Source of the DNA: a virus
Virus record (IMG/VR): IMGVR_UViG_3300027503_000053
Coordinates: 1-26,430 of that record
Reading direction: 5' to 3' (one strand)
Length of the DNA: 26,430 nucleotides
Shown here piece by piece: positions 1,300 through 7,819 of the stretch. The position numbers and the translations under genes were made by a program. The stretch's first letter is position 1, and the number at the start of each line of letters is the position of its first letter. The notes under the pieces were generated by a model. That model was not told where the DNA came from, did no database searches, and was given only the letters and a program-made list of their open reading frames with translations.

Positions 1300-1406
1300 G
1301 GTTTGATTCTCTCTCGGTGTTTGCAGATGGTGCAGATCCAGCTTTTGCCGCTCTTTGATAGGCGGCAGGATCGGAGACATTTCCGACATTGCATGGATTG
1401 ATTCAC
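1296..1406 (-). CDS. 36-residue zinc-ribbon microprotein
   Basis: A very short gene starting at GTG inside junction repeat J1, with AAGGAGG seven bases upstream and a GTGA overlap. It encodes VNQSMQCRKCLRSCRLSKSG, continuing to CTICKHRERIKP. The two CxxC pairs (Cys7/Cys10 and Cys25/Cys28) are spaced as in a classical zinc ribbon, and the protein is strongly basic. The stop overlaps the next ATG as ATGA. The perfect ribosome binding site, both overlaps and the paired cysteines make it credible despite its size. A nucleic-acid or protein-binding role is a guess. Confidence 0.7.
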   Translation of the reverse strand: MNQSMQCRKCLRSCRLSKSGKSWICTICKHRERIKP

Positions 1407-1630
1407 GGCTTGGCCTCCTTGGCTTTGTGCCAGATTCCTCTCCTGTTGTAGATGTCACTTTCTTCGACAAGTTCTTCGGCAAGCTCCTCCAGCCGCTTGA
1501 TGCGGTCATTCGCTGCGTTGAGTTCAAGCTCAAGTTTTCGTGCATCTGCTAGACTTACAACGGAGTGGGTTCCACCTGCTCCGTCTTCAGCCAGCCATTG
1601 AACGGCATCCATTCTCGGCGTATCGCTCAC
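1403..1630 (-). CDS. TPRxDA/ELN-IKRLEE family small coiled-coil protein, copy 1
   Basis: 75 residues from GTG, with AAGGGGGAG upstream and a GTGA overlap. The order is: N-terminal motif SDTPRMDAVQ; a variable stretch containing GAGGTHSVVSLADARK; the shared coiled coil LELELNAANDRIKRLEELAE; a short tail; and C-terminal AKEAKP, which is encoded by junction repeat J1. The two ends and the coiled coil match the paralogues at 1833-2072 and 2883-3128, while the middle differs. Function is unknown. Dimerisation through the coiled coil is likely. The ORF can be extended to 1711 but that part lies inside the preceding gene. Confidence 0.75.
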   Translation of the reverse strand: MSDTPRMDAVQWLAEDGAGGTHSVVSLADARKLELELNAANDRIKRLEELAEELVEESDIYNRRGIWHKAKEAKP

Positions 1631-1836
1631 GGCTTCTCCCCCTTGGCTTGGGTGTGATAGGTGATGCTGAAAGATGCGTAGAGAATGAACACTTTGCCAC
1701 ACCCACCGCATTCACGATTCGAAGGGTCTTCGTTGGCATCACCATCGCAAGCATCTGCTTGGCATGTGTGGCCACAATGCGGACAGATAATGTAGCAGTC
1801 ATCCATCTGATCGCCGGGTTCAAAGTCACTGCTCAC
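1627..1836 (-). CDS. Small zinc-ribbon protein
   Basis: 69 residues from a GTG in junction repeat J3, with AAGGAGG and a seven-base spacer. Its cysteines form a likely zinc ribbon: CPHCGHTC at about residues 18-25, then Cys30, then CGGCGK at about 43-48. The segment between is acidic (DACDGDANEDPSNRE). The protein ends AKGEKP, a variant of the KEAKP tail found across the array, showing that it sits in the same cassette framework although its body is unrelated to the coiled-coil family. Function unknown; such ribbons often bind nucleic acid or protein partners. Confidence 0.75.
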   Translation of the reverse strand: MSSDFEPGDQMDDCYIICPHCGHTCQADACDGDANEDPSNRECGGCGKVFILYASFSITYHTQAKGEKP

Positions 1837-2072
1837 GGCTTGGCCTCCTTGGCATTGGCCCATCCGACTGAATGCAATCCAATATGGTCCATGCATTCAT
1901 CGCAGCATCCGAGAGCCGCTTGCCTTAAAGCATCCCCAGCCTCCTCCAGCCGCTTGATGCGGGCCTTTGCTTCGTTCAACTCGTACTCCATCCGAGTGCA
2001 TTCTTCCGCCATTGCCATGTGATGGCAGACATCTTTTAGACGGGCTGCGTCAGTCCTAGGGTAGTTGCTCAC
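1833..2072 (-). CDS. TPRxDA/ELN-IKRLEE family small coiled-coil protein, copy 2
   Basis: 79 residues from a GTG in junction repeat J4 (AAGGAGG, seven-base spacer, GTGA). It opens SNYPRTDAARLKD, has a Cys/His-containing variable part (CHHMAMAEECTRM), then the shared coiled coil YELNEAKARIKRLEEAGD, then a second variable part (CCDECMDHIGLHS) and ends NAKEAKP. The 18-base stretch coding for IKRLEE is identical to that in copies 1 and 3. The CxxC pairs in the variable parts could bind a metal. Function unknown. Confidence 0.75.
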   Translation of the reverse strand: MSNYPRTDAARLKDVCHHMAMAEECTRMEYELNEAKARIKRLEEAGDALRQAALGCCDECMDHIGLHSVGWANAKEAKP

Positions 2073-2287
2073 GGCTTCGCCTCCTTCTCCTCCCACAGCA
2101 GAAGATCAGCGCGGAGTGCGTCGTTTTCTTTCTCCAGCCGATTTATTTTTCGCAGCAAACCGTTCAATTCACGGACTATTGATATTGGAGAAATGTCTTT
2201 GAGCATTCTTGGATGCACTGGGCAGATAATTGAAAACCCATGTCTAGGAGGACAGTTTGGGTACATCTCAATACGATAATACGTCAC
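2069..2287 (-). CDS. Small coiled-coil protein, divergent array member
   Basis: 72 residues from a GTG in junction repeat J5, with AAGGAGG seven bases upstream and a GTGA overlap. The N-terminal half (VTYYRIEMYPNCPPRHGF and on) does not match the family, but residues 40-65 (IVRELNGLLRKINRLEKEND) align with the ELN..IKRLEE coiled coil, and the protein ends EKEAKP. It may be a hybrid: a family C-terminal half joined to a different N-terminal half. Function unknown. Confidence 0.7.
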   Translation of the reverse strand: MTYYRIEMYPNCPPRHGFSIICPVHPRMLKDISPISIVRELNGLLRKINRLEKENDALRADLLLWEEKEAKP

Positions 2288-2886
2288 GACTCGGCCTCCT
2301 TTTTGAAGTTTGGTTTGGTGTTGTTGCGTAGCCATTCTGATTGATCAGCCCAAGCCTTAGCCAAGGCAGCATCCCTAGCCCAAGCCGCAGCCTTAGCCGC
2401 ATCCCAAGCCGCAGCTCCAGCCGCAGCCCTAGCCGCAGCTCCAGCCGCAGCCAAAGCCGCAGCTCCAGCCGCAGCCAAAGCCGCAGCCCTAGCCGCATCC
2501 CTAGCCGCAGCTCCAGCCGCATCCCTAGCCGCATCCCAAGCCGCATCCCTAGCCGCATCCCTAGCCGCATCCCTAGCCGCATCCCAAGCCTCGGCTAATT
2601 CGGCGTCCGTAGCCCGTCCGCGCGCATACCGCTCTGCGACATCCAGCGCGGCAATGCTTCTCGCATCTGTCATCAGATGCTGCACTTGTCGAGCTGACCA
2701 AACCGCGAACAGTCTTAGATCATTGTCCGTGAGGACTCCGTTGCGTGTTGCGACCCAAATCAACCATTCGGGTTTCAGATTCGTCCACGCATCTTGCATG
2801 GAAACACAGTTTTCCAATGCCCATTTACGGCCACCTTCACAAGCATAATACTTGTCACAGAACTCTTGTATTGTCATGTCACTCAC
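2284..2886 (-). CDS. Imm5-like putative immunity-type protein with alanine-rich tetrad repeats
   Basis: 200 residues from a GTG in junction repeat J6 (AAGGAGG, seven-base spacer); an ATG lies three codons in. Residues 1-100 (WALENCVSMQDAW, then WLIWVATRNGVL, then RSIAALDVAERYARGRAT) resemble the Imm5-like 'putative immunity protein' domain found in many bacteria and phages, from memory and unverified. Residues 100-180 are degenerate four-residue repeats of the DAAR/GAAA type, predicted to be one long alanine-rich helix, encoded by a 12-base tandem repeat. The tail ends KKEAES rather than KEAKP but keeps the junction sequence. Immunity or host-interaction function is inference only. Confidence 0.7.
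   Translation of the reverse strand: MSDMTIQEFCDKYYACEGGRKWALENCVSMQDAWTNLKPEWLIWVATRNGVLTDNDLRLFAVWSARQVQHLMTDARSIAALDVAERYARGRATDAELAEAWDAARDAARDAARDAAWDAARDAAGAAARDAARAAALAAAGAAALAAAGAAARAAAGAAAWDAAKAAAWARDAALAKAWADQSEWLRNNTKPNFKKEAES
2345..2590 (-). repeat. Degenerate 12-bp tandem repeat coding for alanine tetrads
   Basis: About twenty imperfect copies of a 12-bp unit (plus-strand AGCCGCATCCCT and variants such as AGCCGCAGCTCC) lie in tandem. Copies near 2520-2590 are almost identical; those near 2345-2400 have diverged, which suggests recent expansion from one end. In the coding frame each unit gives four residues (DAAR, DAAW, GAAA, LAAA). The multiple-of-three unit keeps the frame whatever the copy number. 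Confidence 0.85.
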
Positions 2887-3128
2887 GGCTTGTCCTCCTT
2901 GGCTTTGTTCAGTTCATCCAGCGCATCTCCAAGAACAGTTCCGCTCCAATCTTGGATGCTGTGTGCTGCATCATCGACTCTCTGCCCCGCCTCCTCCAGC
3001 CGCTTGATCTTGGCGTTCGCTGCGTTGAGTTCGCGTTCTAACTTTGCAGCGTCTTTTATTCGGACGAACTCCTCATCCGTCCCAAAGCAAAACTTCATCA
3101 TTGCATCAACCATAGGCGTGTCTCTCAC
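2883..3128 (-). CDS. TPRxDA/ELN-IKRLEE family small coiled-coil protein, copy 3
   Basis: 81 residues from a GTG in junction repeat J7, with AAGGAGG and a seven-base spacer, overlapping the preceding stop as GTGA. It begins RDTPMVDAMMKF, continues with a variable stretch (GTDEEFVRIKDAA), then the coiled coil LERELNAANAKIKRLEEAGQ, a second variable stretch (DDAAHSIQDWSG), and ends NKAKEDKP. It is the most canonical member of the family. An ORF extension to 3164 is not needed given the strong signals at this GTG. Confidence 0.78.
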   Translation of the reverse strand: MRDTPMVDAMMKFCFGTDEEFVRIKDAAKLERELNAANAKIKRLEEAGQRVDDAAHSIQDWSGTVLGDALDELNKAKEDKP

Positions 3129-3289
3129 GGCTTGGCCTCCTTGGTTTTGTTTTTCCTTCTCCACACCGAGGTGTCGTTCTTGAATCTGTAGTTCCTAGCT
3201 GCCTTGAACGCTTGGCCCACATCGTTCTTGGTCATGTGGTAAGCACCGTCTCCGTCGGTCATTATCCTTTCCGGCGCGGTCCTTTTCAT
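3125..3289 (-). CDS. Small basic protein at the head of the cassette array
   Basis: 54 residues starting at an ATG that overlaps the stop of the RuvC-like gene (ATGA). It is basic (MKRTAPERIMTDGDGAYHMT, then RNYRFKNDTSVWRRKNKT) and ends KEAKP, encoded by junction repeat J7. This is the first gene whose C-terminus supplies the junction sequence, so it marks the boundary between the DNA-metabolism genes and the array. No domain recognised. Confidence 0.68.
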   Translation of the reverse strand: MKRTAPERIMTDGDGAYHMTKNDVGQAFKAARNYRFKNDTSVWRRKNKTKEAKP

Positions 3290-3741
3290 CGGTGTCCTCC
3301 GGTTGCGTAGTGGAGGATCAGCAGGGCATCGCAGTTGCCGAGTGTGACATCCAGATGGGGGTAGAGTTCCTGGGCCTTGGCCTTGAGCTTACGCTTCCAT
3401 TCTGGGCCGGTGGCGCAGGACTTCCTGCCGCCGAGTCCGAGTGGTTCCTGCCAGACTCGTGGCTCGACGCGGTGGAGTGCGTAGCCTTGAGAGTAGGCCA
3501 GTCCTTGGACGATGCCGTAGTTCTCGTGGAGAGTGGCGACGGCTGCTGCTGGGGTGAGTTTGCTAACAAACTTCGGCACCTTCTCGATCCAGATGTGTGA
3601 GTCTGAGAGTTTGATGTCCATGAGGAGTTCGTGGATGTCCGGCACGGATTCCGGCATGGGGAAAAGGAGGATCCTGTCTTGGGTTTTGACTGCGAACCCG
3701 CCGTTCACGCCGGGGTCACAGGCTACGATTGTTTGGTTCAT
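3286..3741 (-). CDS. RuvC-like Holliday junction resolvase
   Basis: 151 residues, the usual length for phage RuvC-type resolvases of the RNase H fold. The expected acidic residues are visible: Asp9 in IVACDPGVNGGFA (first strand), Glu53 in IWIEKVPKF, and Asp138 in GNCDALLILHY. Such enzymes cut four-way DNA junctions made during recombination and replication before packaging. It lies next to recombination and helicase genes, seven bases after the nuclease gene, and its stop overlaps the next ATG. The family is clear. Whether it acts on Holliday junctions or other branched DNA is not shown by the sequence. Confidence 0.85.
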   Translation of the reverse strand: MNQTIVACDPGVNGGFAVKTQDRILLFPMPESVPDIHELLMDIKLSDSHIWIEKVPKFVSKLTPAAAVATLHENYGIVQGLAYSQGYALHRVEPRVWQEPLGLGGRKSCATGPEWKRKLKAKAQELYPHLDVTLGNCDALLILHYATGGHR

Positions 3742-4333: not shown

Positions 4334-4448
4334 TGGTTGGTGGTTGGTTCTGGGATCTGATGGTGAGTTTGTGGCCTACGAAGACTCCGAGGAGTGTGAA
4401 GATCGGGAGGATCGCGGCCATCGAGATGATCGTGAGCGCGGTGTTCAT
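4302..4448 (-). CDS. Small single-pass membrane peptide
   Basis: 48 residues starting at an ATG that overlaps the helicase stop (ATGA). One membrane segment spans about residues 3-25 (TALTIISMAAILPIFTLLGV), followed by a short basic, Asn/Gln-rich cytoplasmic or periplasmic tail. Its end overlaps the nuclease gene by 32 bases. Placement between a helicase and a nuclease is unusual for a membrane peptide; it could be a small host-interaction or inner-membrane anchoring protein. Function unknown. Confidence 0.6.
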   Translation of the reverse strand: MNTALTIISMAAILPIFTLLGVFVGHKLTIRSQNQPPTNEQNNSSNRN

Positions 4449-5557
4449 TGGATCGAGCATCCGAGTTGTTGGTAGCACTTGATCCGCTTCTTGGCGTGGG
4501 CATGGGCGAGCGGATGGAAGTTGTCCTTGAAGTCGTGGATGAACGCCTCGTCCTTCCCTTCGCACCTACGAAGCGCACGACTGGCCCGCTGTATGGTTTT
4601 CTGTGCGCTCCTGCCACCGGACACCATCACGAGTGTGCGGACGTTCGGCAGGTCCAGCCCCTCATCGGCCAGCGAGGTGGCGATCATCGCCCTTATGTTG
4701 CCAGCCTTGAACTCTTCCATTGCAGCGCGGCGGGCCTTCTTCGGCATCTTGGAATGGACGAGGACGGATCCATCGATTGCTTTCGCGTACTCCTCACCGA
4801 GGGTCACCCTGGGGACGAGAACAAGGGTTTGAGGCTCGCACTTGGCGAACATGATTGCGGCGGCATTCCGGTTCTTGTTCTGGCAGATACCGATGTCGGT
4901 GATGGCTTCCCAAGCGCACATGGCGCGGAGTTCGGTATGCGGAATCCGCATGTAGCGTTTGCGGTCGGTGAAGAGCTTCTCGATCTGGTCATCGATCTTG
5001 CTCTGGATGAAGAAGTCCGTGGCCGATGAAAGGAATACGGTCGCGTGGGCCAGAACGTTGACCAGCTCCTCGCGCTTGATCTCGTGTGCGCTGTTTCGGA
5101 ACAACATGAGGAGGATCTCGTTGCGCTCTGGATCATCGCACCAAGGGGTCGCATCGAATCCGTAGCGTCGTCCCTTGCAAGACTCGATGATCCTGCGCCA
5201 TGACTCTGCTGGCGCATGCTTTGCCTCATCCACGATGAGGACTTTCTTGGATGAGAAATCGACAGACTCGTGGGGGCACCGGACCTCGACGATTGAAGGA
5301 TCGACTCCAACAGCCTTGAGCGAACTGATTGCCTGCTGGCATGTCTCGCGGGTTGGGGCGAGCCACCCGAAGGTCATGCCGTGGAACTTCTCGGAGAAGT
5401 GTTTGACGATGGATGACGCGATGAGGGTCTTGCCACACCCTGCTGGAGCGATGATGAGTCCATCCCCTTGAATGGCCCACTCGACAGCTCTCTGCTGGTA
5501 AGGGCGCAGAAGGAACGCTTGCGCGGGTTCCTGTTGTGATGAATCTTTGTCGTGCAT
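4445..5557 (-). CDS. Superfamily 2 DNA/RNA helicase (DEAD/DEAH-type ATPase)
   Basis: 370 residues from the ATG chosen here; a GTG 11 codons earlier (5590) abuts a strong hairpin and is less likely. Numbering from that upstream GTG, the helicase motifs are: Q-motif-like RPYQQRAV at 29-36; Walker A APAGCGKT at 48-55; Walker B VDEAK at 120-124, where DEAH has become DEAK; motif III-like GFDATP at 144-149; motif V IATSLADEGLDLP near 300; and motif VI QRASRALRR at 334-342. Phage SF2 helicases of this size (UvsW-like or Rad25-like) act in replication-fork remodelling or recombination. The stop overlaps the following small membrane gene. Confidence 0.85.
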   Translation of the reverse strand: MHDKDSSQQEPAQAFLLRPYQQRAVEWAIQGDGLIIAPAGCGKTLIASSIVKHFSEKFHGMTFGWLAPTRETCQQAISSLKAVGVDPSIVEVRCPHESVDFSSKKVLIVDEAKHAPAESWRRIIESCKGRRYGFDATPWCDDPERNEILLMLFRNSAHEIKREELVNVLAHATVFLSSATDFFIQSKIDDQIEKLFTDRKRYMRIPHTELRAMCAWEAITDIGICQNKNRNAAAIMFAKCEPQTLVLVPRVTLGEEYAKAIDGSVLVHSKMPKKARRAAMEEFKAGNIRAMIATSLADEGLDLPNVRTLVMVSGGRSAQKTIQRASRALRRCEGKDEAFIHDFKDNFHPLAHAHAKKRIKCYQQLGCSIQ

Positions 5558-5591
5558 AGCGTTTCGTTGCGCTTTGTTACTTGTTCGCACA

Positions 5592-5631: not shown

Positions 5632-6048
5632 TCAGAACGCCTCGTCAGCGGGGGTCTTCTTCAGACGCTTCACGCGCAGGGTGGTCTGTTCGGCACCGTT
5701 CTTGTCGGTGTACTTCTCCTCTTCGAGGACGATGTTGAGCGAGAGCCCCACAAAGCCTTGGAGGAAGGCGAGGAAGGCACCTGGGACCGAGAAGTCGAAC
5801 TCCTTGCCGTCATCGATGTTGGCATCGGTGGCGGAGATGAGCGACTGGACGCGCCACATGAGGGTTTCCTTGAGGGTGAACCGGTCGCTGGCGGTCTCGC
5901 CGGTGGCAGCCTTGTAGCGGAGGGTGACGACGGGGTTGCCGTACTTGTCGAGGCCCTCGTCCTTGGCGGAGTTGACGACGACGGTGTATTCGCCGGGCTT
6001 GGCGAAGGACTTCACTTCTGCTTGGGAACGATCGACTGTGAACTTCAT
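5632..6048 (-). CDS. DUF669/SSB-like phage DNA-binding protein
   Basis: 138 residues. The pattern KPGEYTVVVNSAKDEG at residues 17-32, followed by a strand-rich core and a lysine-rich end (LRVKRLKKTPADEAF), resembles phage proteins of the DUF669 type that sit beside RecT/RecE or helicase genes and are thought to bind single-stranded DNA. The short acidic C-terminal tail after a basic patch is also seen in some SSBs. It is placed four bases after the RecE-like nuclease and before the helicase, as expected for a recombination module. The family match is from memory and moderate. Confidence 0.6.
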   Translation of the reverse strand: MKFTVDRSQAEVKSFAKPGEYTVVVNSAKDEGLDKYGNPVVTLRYKAATGETASDRFTLKETLMWRVQSLISATDANIDDGKEFDFSVPGAFLAFLQGFVGLSLNIVLEEEKYTDKNGAEQTTLRVKRLKKTPADEAF

Positions 6049-6052
6049 GGTG

Positions 6053-6829
6053 TTACTGGTTTTCGTTGTTCTTCAAAGCCCACGTGGGCAGAGAAAGGGT
6101 TTCTGTTGAGGAGGAATAACAGGGCCAAGAGTTGAGGGCTTGGCATTCGCGGAAGGTGGCTAGCTGAGCATCGATGATCTCGTTGCCGAGGTCGATGGCC
6201 TGCTGATCAAGCTCGTAGCAGGCGATGCCGAATGGCGGTTCCTTCTCTGCTGCGATGAATACGAAGCGGCGGATGCCGGTGATGCGCTGGTACCAAGCGG
6301 CTTGGACATGGTATCGGAACTGCGCGACGGACTTGGCGAACGCCGATGGCGATGCGTCCTGGGTGGTCTTGAGGTCGATGATGTAATCGTCTGCGATGCC
6401 ATCGAGTCGGGCTTTGACCTCGATGCCCATCCAGTTGTCGAACCACGAGGTCTCTGGCTCGATGCGGTGGAGGAGTTGGGCGGCGGCAGGGTGTGCGTGG
6501 ACGGATGCCGCGAGGTGGTTGATCGAGTCCCAAGTCTCTGCTGCCAGCGGGGTGTGGCCTGAGTCGAGGATTGCCTGCCAGATGGCCTTGCCTTCCTTGG
6601 TGCGCTTGTCCCCGTTGAACGGCTTGTACTTCTGGATGAACAGTTCTGGCTCAAGAACAGCCATGTGGGCGGCGGTGCCGAACTCCATGGCAGGAGTGGA
6701 CTCCTGCTTGGCATCACCGTCCTGCCATGCGCGGAAGTGGGCGGGCGACTTGCGGAACTGGTCGAGCCCGGACTTGGAGAGAGAGCGTCGGGCGTGGTAA
6801 TCCGCTGCCGCCATCTGTTTGAACTTCAC
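6053..6829 (-). CDS. RecE/lambda-exonuclease-like PD-(D/E)XK nuclease
   Basis: 258 residues from a GTG at 6829, chosen because GGAGG lies seven bases upstream and the GTG overlaps the RecT-like stop as GTGA; the longer ORF to 7633 runs through RecT. The N-terminus DYHARRSLSKSGLDQFRKSP and GTAAHMAVLEP (His55) are typical of RecB-family phage exonucleases. Catalytic residues are Asp143 in RLDGIAD and Asp152-x-Lys154 in DLKTT, with the Q-motif FRYHVQAAWY at 171-180. Such enzymes resect double-stranded ends to give 3' overhangs for the annealing partner, which is encoded directly upstream. Confidence 0.88.
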   Translation of the reverse strand: MKFKQMAAADYHARRSLSKSGLDQFRKSPAHFRAWQDGDAKQESTPAMEFGTAAHMAVLEPELFIQKYKPFNGDKRTKEGKAIWQAILDSGHTPLAAETWDSINHLAASVHAHPAAAQLLHRIEPETSWFDNWMGIEVKARLDGIADDYIIDLKTTQDASPSAFAKSVAQFRYHVQAAWYQRITGIRRFVFIAAEKEPPFGIACYELDQQAIDLGNEIIDAQLATFRECQALNSWPCYSSSTETLSLPTWALKNNENQ

Positions 6830-7596
6830 GATGCGACCTCCACGGTGGTCTCGACGGCGGGAGCCGGGAGCTTGGAGAGGATGAGGTCGGGCCGCTTGAT
6901 GTACTTGGAAGCGGTCACGTCGTCGATGTCGCGGAAGGTCTGACCTTCCTTGATGCGTCCGGCACCGATGAGGAGTTGGTTCACCTCGGTCTCGCGTGAC
7001 TCGAACAGCTCTTCGAGTTTGGAGGTGATGTCGAAGGACTTGGCCGGGGTGACTGCGACCTCGGAAGGAGCGGGCTGGAAGTCCTCGGTTTCCTCCGGGG
7101 TGTAGATCCCGGCGACGACCTCGGGGGCGAGCATGCGGACTGCCTTGGAAATGCAGCGGGCGCGAAGCATGGCGGAAGGATCCTTGGCCCACCCGGAACC
7201 CGGCTTGGCGGGGAGCAGGCCAGCGATGCGGGCATCGTTCTCGGTGAAGCCGATCTCGCACTCGTTGCCATCGTACTTCCAGATGGCGATGGCTGCTTTG
7301 GAGTCGAACTGCTTCCAGAGGACTTTGCCTCCGCGAACACGGTATCCGGCGAGCATGGCATCGGAGCGCATGCTCAAGGATCCGTTGATGATGTGGTACT
7401 CGCGCTTGAAGTCGAACGGGGTCTTCTTCTCGGCGGCGCATTGCCACGCGATGAGTTTGCCCTGCTCGACCTTGGTGCATCCGAGCATGCCGGATGAAGC
7501 GATCCACTCGCCCATCTTCTCGATGGCGGTGATTGGGTCCGAGATCTTGTCGTACATCTCGGATGATGGCTGCGTTGTCGTTGCGATTGCGTTCAT
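6826..7596 (-). CDS. RecT-like single-strand annealing protein
   Basis: 256 residues from the ATG that overlaps the HTH gene stop (ATGA); the ORF is open further upstream but that part is a shadow. Residues 43-90 (VEQGKLIAWQCAAEKKTPFD, then IINGSLSMRSDAMLAGYR) and 136-172 (WAKDPSAMLRARCISKAVRM, then PEVVAGIYTPEE) match the RecT/Redbeta superfamily layout in which MLRAR..S...R...P.V..GIYTPEE closes the core. The C-terminal 80 residues are variable. It would anneal single strands produced by the adjacent RecE-like exonuclease. Operon partner and motif order make the assignment strong. Confidence 0.82.
   Translation of the reverse strand: MNAIATTTQPSSEMYDKISDPITAIEKMGEWIASSGMLGCTKVEQGKLIAWQCAAEKKTPFDFKREYHIINGSLSMRSDAMLAGYRVRGGKVLWKQFDSKAAIAIWKYDGNECEIGFTENDARIAGLLPAKPGSGWAKDPSAMLRARCISKAVRMLAPEVVAGIYTPEETEDFQPAPSEVAVTPAKSFDITSKLEELFESRETEVNQLLIGAGRIKEGQTFRDIDDVTASKYIKRPDLILSKLPAPAVETTVEVAS
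6827..6841 (-). promoter_or_regulatory. Ribosome binding site that decides the RecE-like start
   Basis: GGAGG lies seven bases before the GTG at 6829, inside the last codons of the RecT-like gene (VEVAS). It is the best Shine-Dalgarno in the recombination operon and shows that the nuclease begins at this GTG rather than at an ATG five codons in or at the far upstream end of the open frame. Confidence 0.75.
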
Positions 7597-7769
7597 TTGT
7601 CTTGTTGGTTTCGGAGCATCTGCTCGACCACATCGGAGCGGACCCGGATGACTTGGCTGGTGGCCTTCATCGCTGGGAGCCGCCCCGAACGGATCCATCG
7701 GCGCACGGTCTCGGGATGGACCCCGAGAGCAGTGGCGATCTGCTTCGTTGAGAGGAGTTTTACGCTCAC
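7593..7769 (-). CDS. Excisionase/MerR-type helix-turn-helix protein
   Basis: 58 residues from the GTG at 7769; a TTG at 7805 would add 12 residues, and neither has a good Shine-Dalgarno. The sequence KLLSTKQIATALGVHPETVR, followed by RWIRSGRLPAMKATSQVIRV, is the classical HTH_17 (excisionase/MerR-like) winged helix: HTH at residues 5-25 and wing with RSGRLPA at 27-33. These small proteins act as excisionases or operon regulators. It stands first in the recombination operon after a 50-base gap, so autoregulation of that operon is plausible. No integrase is seen, which makes an excision role less likely here. Confidence 0.82.
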   Translation of the reverse strand: MSVKLLSTKQIATALGVHPETVRRWIRSGRLPAMKATSQVIRVRSDVVEQMLRNQQDK

Positions 7770-7819
7770 GGGGCAGATGTTGCACCGTGTCGTACTCTGC
7801 CGCAAGGAAATTGTTGAAA

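Follow-up and report, generated by a model that had tools for sequence, protein, structure and literature searches.

On the evidence of sequence comparison, neighbouring genes are exchanged repeatedly at a short junction element in a group of freshwater phages. The element was studied from the window, the whole 26.4-kb virus record analysed here, which carries what appears to be an array of translationally coupled small accessory genes whose junctions share a single DNA sequence. In related phages the array is a mosaic, and exchange probably proceeds by homologous recombination or annealing at linkers that hold translation signals, between co-infecting phages. It should be noted that the data are metagenome contigs throughout, and recombination has not been seen experimentally.

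The junction element and the genes around it

The element, AAGGAGGCCAAGCCGTGA, occurs in the window in seven copies with 0-3 mismatches, one per stop/start overlap, compared with 0.03 copies expected by chance and a maximum of one in 100 shuffles. The earlier note had placed seven near-copies, three of them identical, at consecutive gene boundaries, and all of them were recovered there on the minus strand:

3125..3142, minus strand: junction element 1, exact copy of AAGGAGGCCAAGCCGTGA
2883..2900, minus strand: junction element 2, 1 mismatch, ..KEDKP-stop/GTG
2284..2301, minus strand: junction element 3, 2 mismatches, ..KEAES-stop/GTG
2069..2086, minus strand: junction element 4, 1 mismatch; the upstream gene ends ..ADLLLWEEKEAKP
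1833..1850, minus strand: junction element 5, exact copy
1627..1644, minus strand: junction element 6, 3 mismatches
1403..1420, minus strand: junction element 7, exact copy

Each copy provides the C-terminal codons of an open reading frame (KEAKP in four copies, and KEDKP, KEAES and KGEKP), contains a Shine-Dalgarno sequence (AAGGAGG, or AAGGGGG in one copy) seven bases 5' of the GTG codon, and makes a GTGA stop/start overlap. The suggestion that one sequence is at once a C-terminus (KEAKP or a variant), a Shine-Dalgarno sequence at constant distance and a GTGA overlap is thus borne out in every copy. Conservation is low farther out than about -12, and no significant fold was detected in the 48 nt around the seven window junctions on the strand tested.

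The junctions separate the following genes:

3125..3289, minus strand: array gene 1, 54 aa, the entry to the array
2883..3128, minus strand: cassette 2, coiled-coil protein of the TPRTDA-like family, 81 aa
2284..2886, minus strand: cassette 3, alanine-rich repeat protein, 200 aa, phrog_18326 (function unknown)
2069..2287, minus strand: cassette 4, 72 aa, ends ..ADLLLWEEKEAKP
1833..2072, minus strand: cassette 5, coiled-coil protein of the YPRTDA family, 79 aa
1627..1836, minus strand: cassette 6, Cys-rich, zinc-finger-like protein, 69 aa
1403..1630, minus strand: cassette 7, coiled-coil protein of the SDTPRMDA family, 75 aa
1296..1406, minus strand: final array gene, Cys-rich protein, 36 aa

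As had been claimed, paralogous and unrelated genes are mixed between the junctions: three coiled-coil proteins that begin with a TPRTDA-like motif and have a RIKRLEE-like one in the middle are found beside three unrelated proteins (the 200-aa alanine-rich repeat protein, the Cys-rich protein and the 72-aa protein). No relatives of the Cys-rich cassette were found by a peptide-pattern scan. A 12-bp tandem repeat (17.8 copies, positions 2377-2590, minus strand) lies inside gene 2284-2886 and encodes its Ala-rich A-A-R/W-D repeat.

Ahead of the array is a replication-recombination block in the order RecT-like protein, RecE-like nuclease, single-strand DNA binding protein, helicase and RuvC-like resolvase:

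6826..7785, minus strand: open reading frame with a RecT-like annealing protein (phrog_561, E=6e-22; PF03837, 24.9 bits)
6053..6826, minus strand: RecE-like PDDEXK nuclease, DUF3799 (PF12684, E=2e-37)
5632..6048, minus strand: single-strand DNA binding protein (phrog_378)
4445..5590, minus strand: DEAD/ResIII helicase, used as an unbiased anchor to choose relatives
3286..3741, minus strand: Holliday-junction resolvase (phrog_1770; RuvC-like), immediately before the array

The Pfam match of the RecT-like protein is weak (24.9 bits against a cutoff of 24).

Distribution of the element

The earlier note had recommended a database search for the element, and this search was productive, as the exact 18-mer is present in at least 120 IMG/VR stretches. 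Among the matches listed, a stretch holds up to six exact copies, and the KEAKP-stop/GTG frame is kept with few exceptions; within a record, every copy lies on one strand. When up to three mismatches are allowed, 496 junctions at 200 loci are found, compared with 0-3 for 20 permuted elements that have the same GTGA end. Because some of the 200 loci come from one contig and overlap, later counts were dereplicated by sequence. The element is also frequent among relatives chosen by the helicase without use of the element, of which 66 of 80 contain it and 38 of 80 contain two or more copies.

Among 84,980 genomes of bacteria and archaea, an exact copy occurs in just 31 stretches, a few of them from Verrucomicrobia; these 18-mers are isolated, and no arrays were found in these genomes. 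The Verrucomicrobia phage P8625 is the top match to the helicase among the matches listed (36% identity), and the stretch of it that was examined contains no element at up to four mismatches; this helicase match is the sole pointer to a host, which would be Verrucomicrobia-like. A cassette-type protein, searched for in isolate phages with an approximate, hand-made, consensus-like sequence, gave no match.

Exchange of gene partners at the element

An alignment of relatives, also recommended in the earlier note and covering approx. 200 stretches, revealed cassettes that are present in some phages and absent from others, cassettes that are replaced and neighbours that change, and the breakpoints fall at the element. 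One upstream gene is joined to different downstream genes across phages, and vice versa. For example, relatives of the left gene of junction 2069-2086 have more than 12 different right genes, and L039 alone shares the one found in the window; at junction 1627-1644, L060 has the same left gene and a different right gene; and at junction 1403-1420, L181 has the same right gene (a homologue of the 36-aa protein) preceded by another left cassette. Of 70 left clusters with several members at element junctions, 65 are joined to two or more right partners that are unrelated to each other, compared with 12 of 39 at element-free junctions far from arrays (p=1e-11). The same measure gives 64 of 97 at element-free Shine-Dalgarno/overlap junctions near arrays (Fisher p=3e-5 against the element). 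The idea of gene swapping at the element is thus supported, but the element is not the only site, since partners also change at these element-free junctions and at the intragenic RIKRLEE linker considered below.

The ends of blast alignments point to the same place. Within 3 bp of the right edge of the element lie 216 of 889 ends (permuted mean 12.5, maximum 28), and within 3 bp of its left edge 91 of 936 (permuted mean 13.5, maximum 32), where the null was obtained by shifting element positions within each array and the alignments were dereplicated. Individual pairs illustrate the pattern: L196 and L200 do not differ at all over the 6,985 bp that lead to the element, split one base past it and rejoin at an intragenic linker, and L090 and L159 differ by a 608-bp insertion with elements at both ends. 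The pair L196/L197, a candidate for element breakpoints on both sides, was rejected, as base-level alignment puts the right breakpoint at an intragenic RIKQLED.

Linkage across the element locates the change more closely. In pairs that share only the left gene, linkage is 0.7-1.0 as far as element position 2 and approximately 0 from +1, the base that follows GTGA, and pairs that share only the right gene give the mirror image; positions 8, 9 and 14 are intermediate, linked partly to each side, with wide confidence intervals. As linkage flips across the element, the change of ancestry lies inside the 18 bp.

An intragenic linker

In a scan that ranked k-mers by how diverse their contexts are on the two sides, the element came first and CGCATCAAGCGGCTGGAGGA next; the latter encodes RIKRLEE, which is centrally placed in many cassette genes. 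In a blind scan of 81 helicase-chosen loci (481,425 16-mers), the element again had the most diverse contexts (23/25), followed by RIKRLEE (21/19). The window contains three such linkers:

2983..3011, minus strand: intragenic linker K-IKRLEEAG-Q, 4 mismatches to CGCATCAAGCGGCTGGAGGAGGCGGGGGA
1933..1961, minus strand: intragenic linker RIKRLEEAGD, 1 mismatch to CGCATCAAGCGGCTGGAGGAGGCGGGGGA
1476..1504, minus strand: intragenic linker RIKRLEELAE, 5 mismatches to CGCATCAAGCGGCTGGAGGAGGCGGGGGA

Alignments end at the RIKRLEE linker in 156 of 889 and 130 of 936 cases, compared with approx. 3.6% expected, and the linkage pattern also flips inside this linker. The right breakpoints of the pairs L196/L197 and L196/L200 are coiled-coil linkers of this type. 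Half-genes are therefore swapped as well as whole genes, and chimeric genes result. Because the genes are chimeric, single-linkage clustering of proteins merged the paralogues into a single family of 380, and the comparison was based on DNA contexts. Within arrays, more than half of the ends of dereplicated alignments lie at neither linker. A rarer junction of the ATGA type (WKECK-stop, KE.K-stop; AAGGAGTGCAAATGA, AGGAGGCGAAATGAGC), observed in arrays L008-L207, also has diverse contexts on both sides.

Conservation of the linkers as DNA

Several positions of the linkers are conserved where the encoded protein would not require it. The Lys codon at element position 12 is AAG in approx. 95% of copies, compared with 55% elsewhere in array genes (AAA 45%), and the second Arg of RIKRLEE is CGG in 92%, compared with 20% in array genes. 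In arrays the spacer AAGC is conserved to 95-98%, and it is not the consensus at other Shine-Dalgarno overlaps of these phages. Element positions 8 and 14, at which changes alter the amino acid, are variable, and residues 3 and 5 of the encoded tail vary freely (A/D/V/G/T and P/L, respectively). Since synonymous sites are frozen, the shared sequence reflects DNA ancestry and not protein need alone; this conservation points to ancestry shared through recombination or homogenisation, beyond the needs of the Shine-Dalgarno sequence and the peptide.

These observations bear on the possibility that joins are made anywhere by illegitimate recombination and that only intact, translatable genes survive selection, the element being an optimal coupling signal that travels with the upstream gene or has evolved repeatedly. 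Such a process would account for the partner switching at element-free junctions near arrays (64/97), and most of the 31 exact 18-mers in the 84,980 genomes are isolated KEAKP-stop/GTG junctions, which shows that convergence can produce the sequence. However, linkage switches inside the element, which does not travel whole with the left gene; the second linker is intragenic, where no translation signal is needed; and positions outside the Shine-Dalgarno sequence, as well as synonymous ones, are conserved. We therefore regard this explanation as unlikely, without setting it aside.

It is still harder to support selection at the protein level, according to which KEAKP (in W..KAKEAKP) would be a functional C-terminal tail, e.g., a docking or protease signal. 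The tail is indeed common to unrelated small proteins, but it is free to vary at residues 3 and 5 and yet keeps one synonymous position conserved, few synonymous rewrites of it are seen, and a role of the peptide would leave the exchange of partners unexplained. This reading has very little to recommend it.

Recombination enzymes and a possible mechanism

The exchanges are inferred to occur by homologous recombination or by annealing of single strands, between co-infecting phages that share 18-34 bp of near-identical sequence. That this homology is short speaks against the reading: the inferred parental junctions have 18-34 bp in common, hardly more than random pairs of elements share. Each exchange at such a junction would preserve the reading frame, the ribosome-binding site and the stop/start coupling, and it is inferred that recombinants would therefore be expressed at once and survive. 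Translational coupling is established biology, and a fixed Shine-Dalgarno sequence, spacing and overlap would keep recombinants expressed.

With less support, the enzymes may be the RecT-type annealing proteins of the phages together with the RecE-like nuclease, encoded approx. 3-4 kb upstream of the array. The earlier note had named a RecT/RecE pair as a possible agent; both proteins are encoded in the window, but their role is unproven. A RecT match (PF03837, E<=0.001) was obtained for 17 of 27 array-bearing records, in 14 of them above the Pfam cutoff, and the RecT mechanism may therefore not be general. No ERF protein was found in 19 array-bearing records. In G039 and G043 (the records of L075 and L124), the RecT phrog_561 match spans two and one in-frame TGA codons, respectively.

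Confinement of breakpoints to a short, defined sequence is also what a dedicated recombinase acting site-specifically at the element, as in integrons, would produce. However, tyrosine integrase (PF00589) and serine resolvase (PF00239) domains were found in 0 of 21 array-bearing records, the element has no significant fold, and an unrelated second linker recombines too, all of which makes such an enzyme most improbable. A virulent lifestyle may be inferred from the absence of integrase and resolvase in all 21 records and of arrays in host genomes.

A further and only tentative possibility is that both linkers have been selected as recombination sites and form a recombinase-independent, integron-like generator of whole-gene recombinants and half-gene chimeras. 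If this were true, selected linkers would build novelty from a cassette pool common to several phage lineages that infect the same hosts.

Phage backbones and the question of assembly

Cassettes of this kind occur on different phage backbones. In 28 long array-bearing records, the helicase is 63-94% identical to that of the window in eight, distant in five and not detected in fifteen; cassettes at 85-99% DNA identity are common to these helicase groups, and outside the array the stretches compared have little or no similarity between groups. As the records may be fragments, a missing helicase or missing similarity is weak evidence. In L009 (7295-9031; record 3300044695_002148) and in the record of L118, the helicase homologue carries an in-frame interruption, with two matches approx. 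1 kb apart in one 746-aa frame. Because of the in-frame gap and the intein-like ends (GHPFWNG...GILVHNC), the interruption is probably an intein, a prediction made from the translation.

If one gene had been duplicated in tandem and had diverged, with no exchange from phage to phage, the several paralogous cassettes (the TPRTDA...RIKRLEE family) would be explained, but this hardly merits belief, as the element is common to unrelated families, and cassettes 90-99% identical stand in different orders, neighbourhoods and backbones. Nor is there much reason to suspect that short repeats produced chimeric contigs, despite the origin of all sequences in metagenome assemblies: the repeat does not reach the length of a usual read, and six left clusters have at least two alternative right partners, each in at least two independent contigs from different metagenomes (three further cases, in which one contig had been counted twice, were left out), a recurrence that makes chimeric assembly unlikely.

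Comparison with known systems

PeSLs, attributed to Arbiol in 2010 and Comeau in 2014, are reportedly promoter-terminator motifs that flank small accessory genes in T4-type phages, where they are said to have been proposed to drive shuffling in hyperplastic regions. As with PeSLs, a repeated regulatory motif flanks small genes here, and gene content changes between copies of the motif. However, PeSLs are intergenic, whereas the present motif is coding sequence, Shine-Dalgarno sequence and stop/start overlap with no intergenic space, and the second linker is intragenic. The PeSL arrangement of an early promoter and a terminator stem-loop between genes does not fit here, as there is no intergenic space and no significant hairpin (only hairpins, not promoters, were searched for). 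The PeSL work on T4-type phages is cited in PMC4503421 and PMC3797505.

According to the accessible part of PMC3203893, the SAS of cluster K mycobacteriophages (13-bp consensus GGGATAGGAGCCC) is a short asymmetric repeat with a ribosome-binding site before many unrelated small genes; its conserved positions include ones unable to pair with 16S rRNA, and at about half of the sites 17-bp inverted repeats (ESAS) lie upstream. The element resembles SAS, as known from that portion, in lying directly before the starts of unrelated genes and in including the Shine-Dalgarno sequence. It differs in consensus (AAGGAGGCCAAGCCGTGA, not GGGATAGGAGCCC), and the same portion describes neither a coding C-terminus or stop/start overlap nor a recombination test at SAS. 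In contrast to the ESAS described there, the element shows no sign of upstream inverted repeats, with little conservation beyond about -12 and no fold.

Mosaic phage genomes arise when Rad52-like recombinases exchange DNA on the basis of homology (De Paepe 2014, PMC3945230). Short, imperfect homology at the borders of exchanged fragments is found there and here; the window also encodes a RecT-type protein, as do 17 of 27 related records at E<=0.001. However, that mosaicism relies on ordinary gene homology, whereas here one short translation-signal sequence is repeated as a linker. The arrays also resemble integron cassettes in being ordered, in holding small, mostly unknown genes and in having a common recombining site at each boundary, but there is no integrase (PF00589, 0/21) and, on the strand tested, no structured attC, and the element lies inside coding sequence.

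Repeated translation-start elements (SAS) and motif-driven shuffling (PeSLs) are thus already described. No paper on the element or the TPRTDA motif was found in the literature searched, and nothing like it in isolates. What appears new, as not found in the papers searched, is an element of coding C-terminus, Shine-Dalgarno sequence and stop/start overlap as a point of exchange, together with an intragenic linker.

Significance

It is still debated whether phage genomes are reshuffled by random joins followed by selection or by recombination at limited homology (PMC3945230). The arrays offer a natural system: the junction occurs in hundreds of instances and the switch falls inside one short functional sequence, which makes this debate measurable. 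The element and RIKRLEE can also serve as sequence tags to find and compare accessory gene pools in environmental viruses. Finally, the junction suggests a design rule: when ribosome-binding site, stop and start lie within the recombining sequence, every exchange would be expressed, and by exchange at this junction phages may therefore trade small genes without breaking expression.
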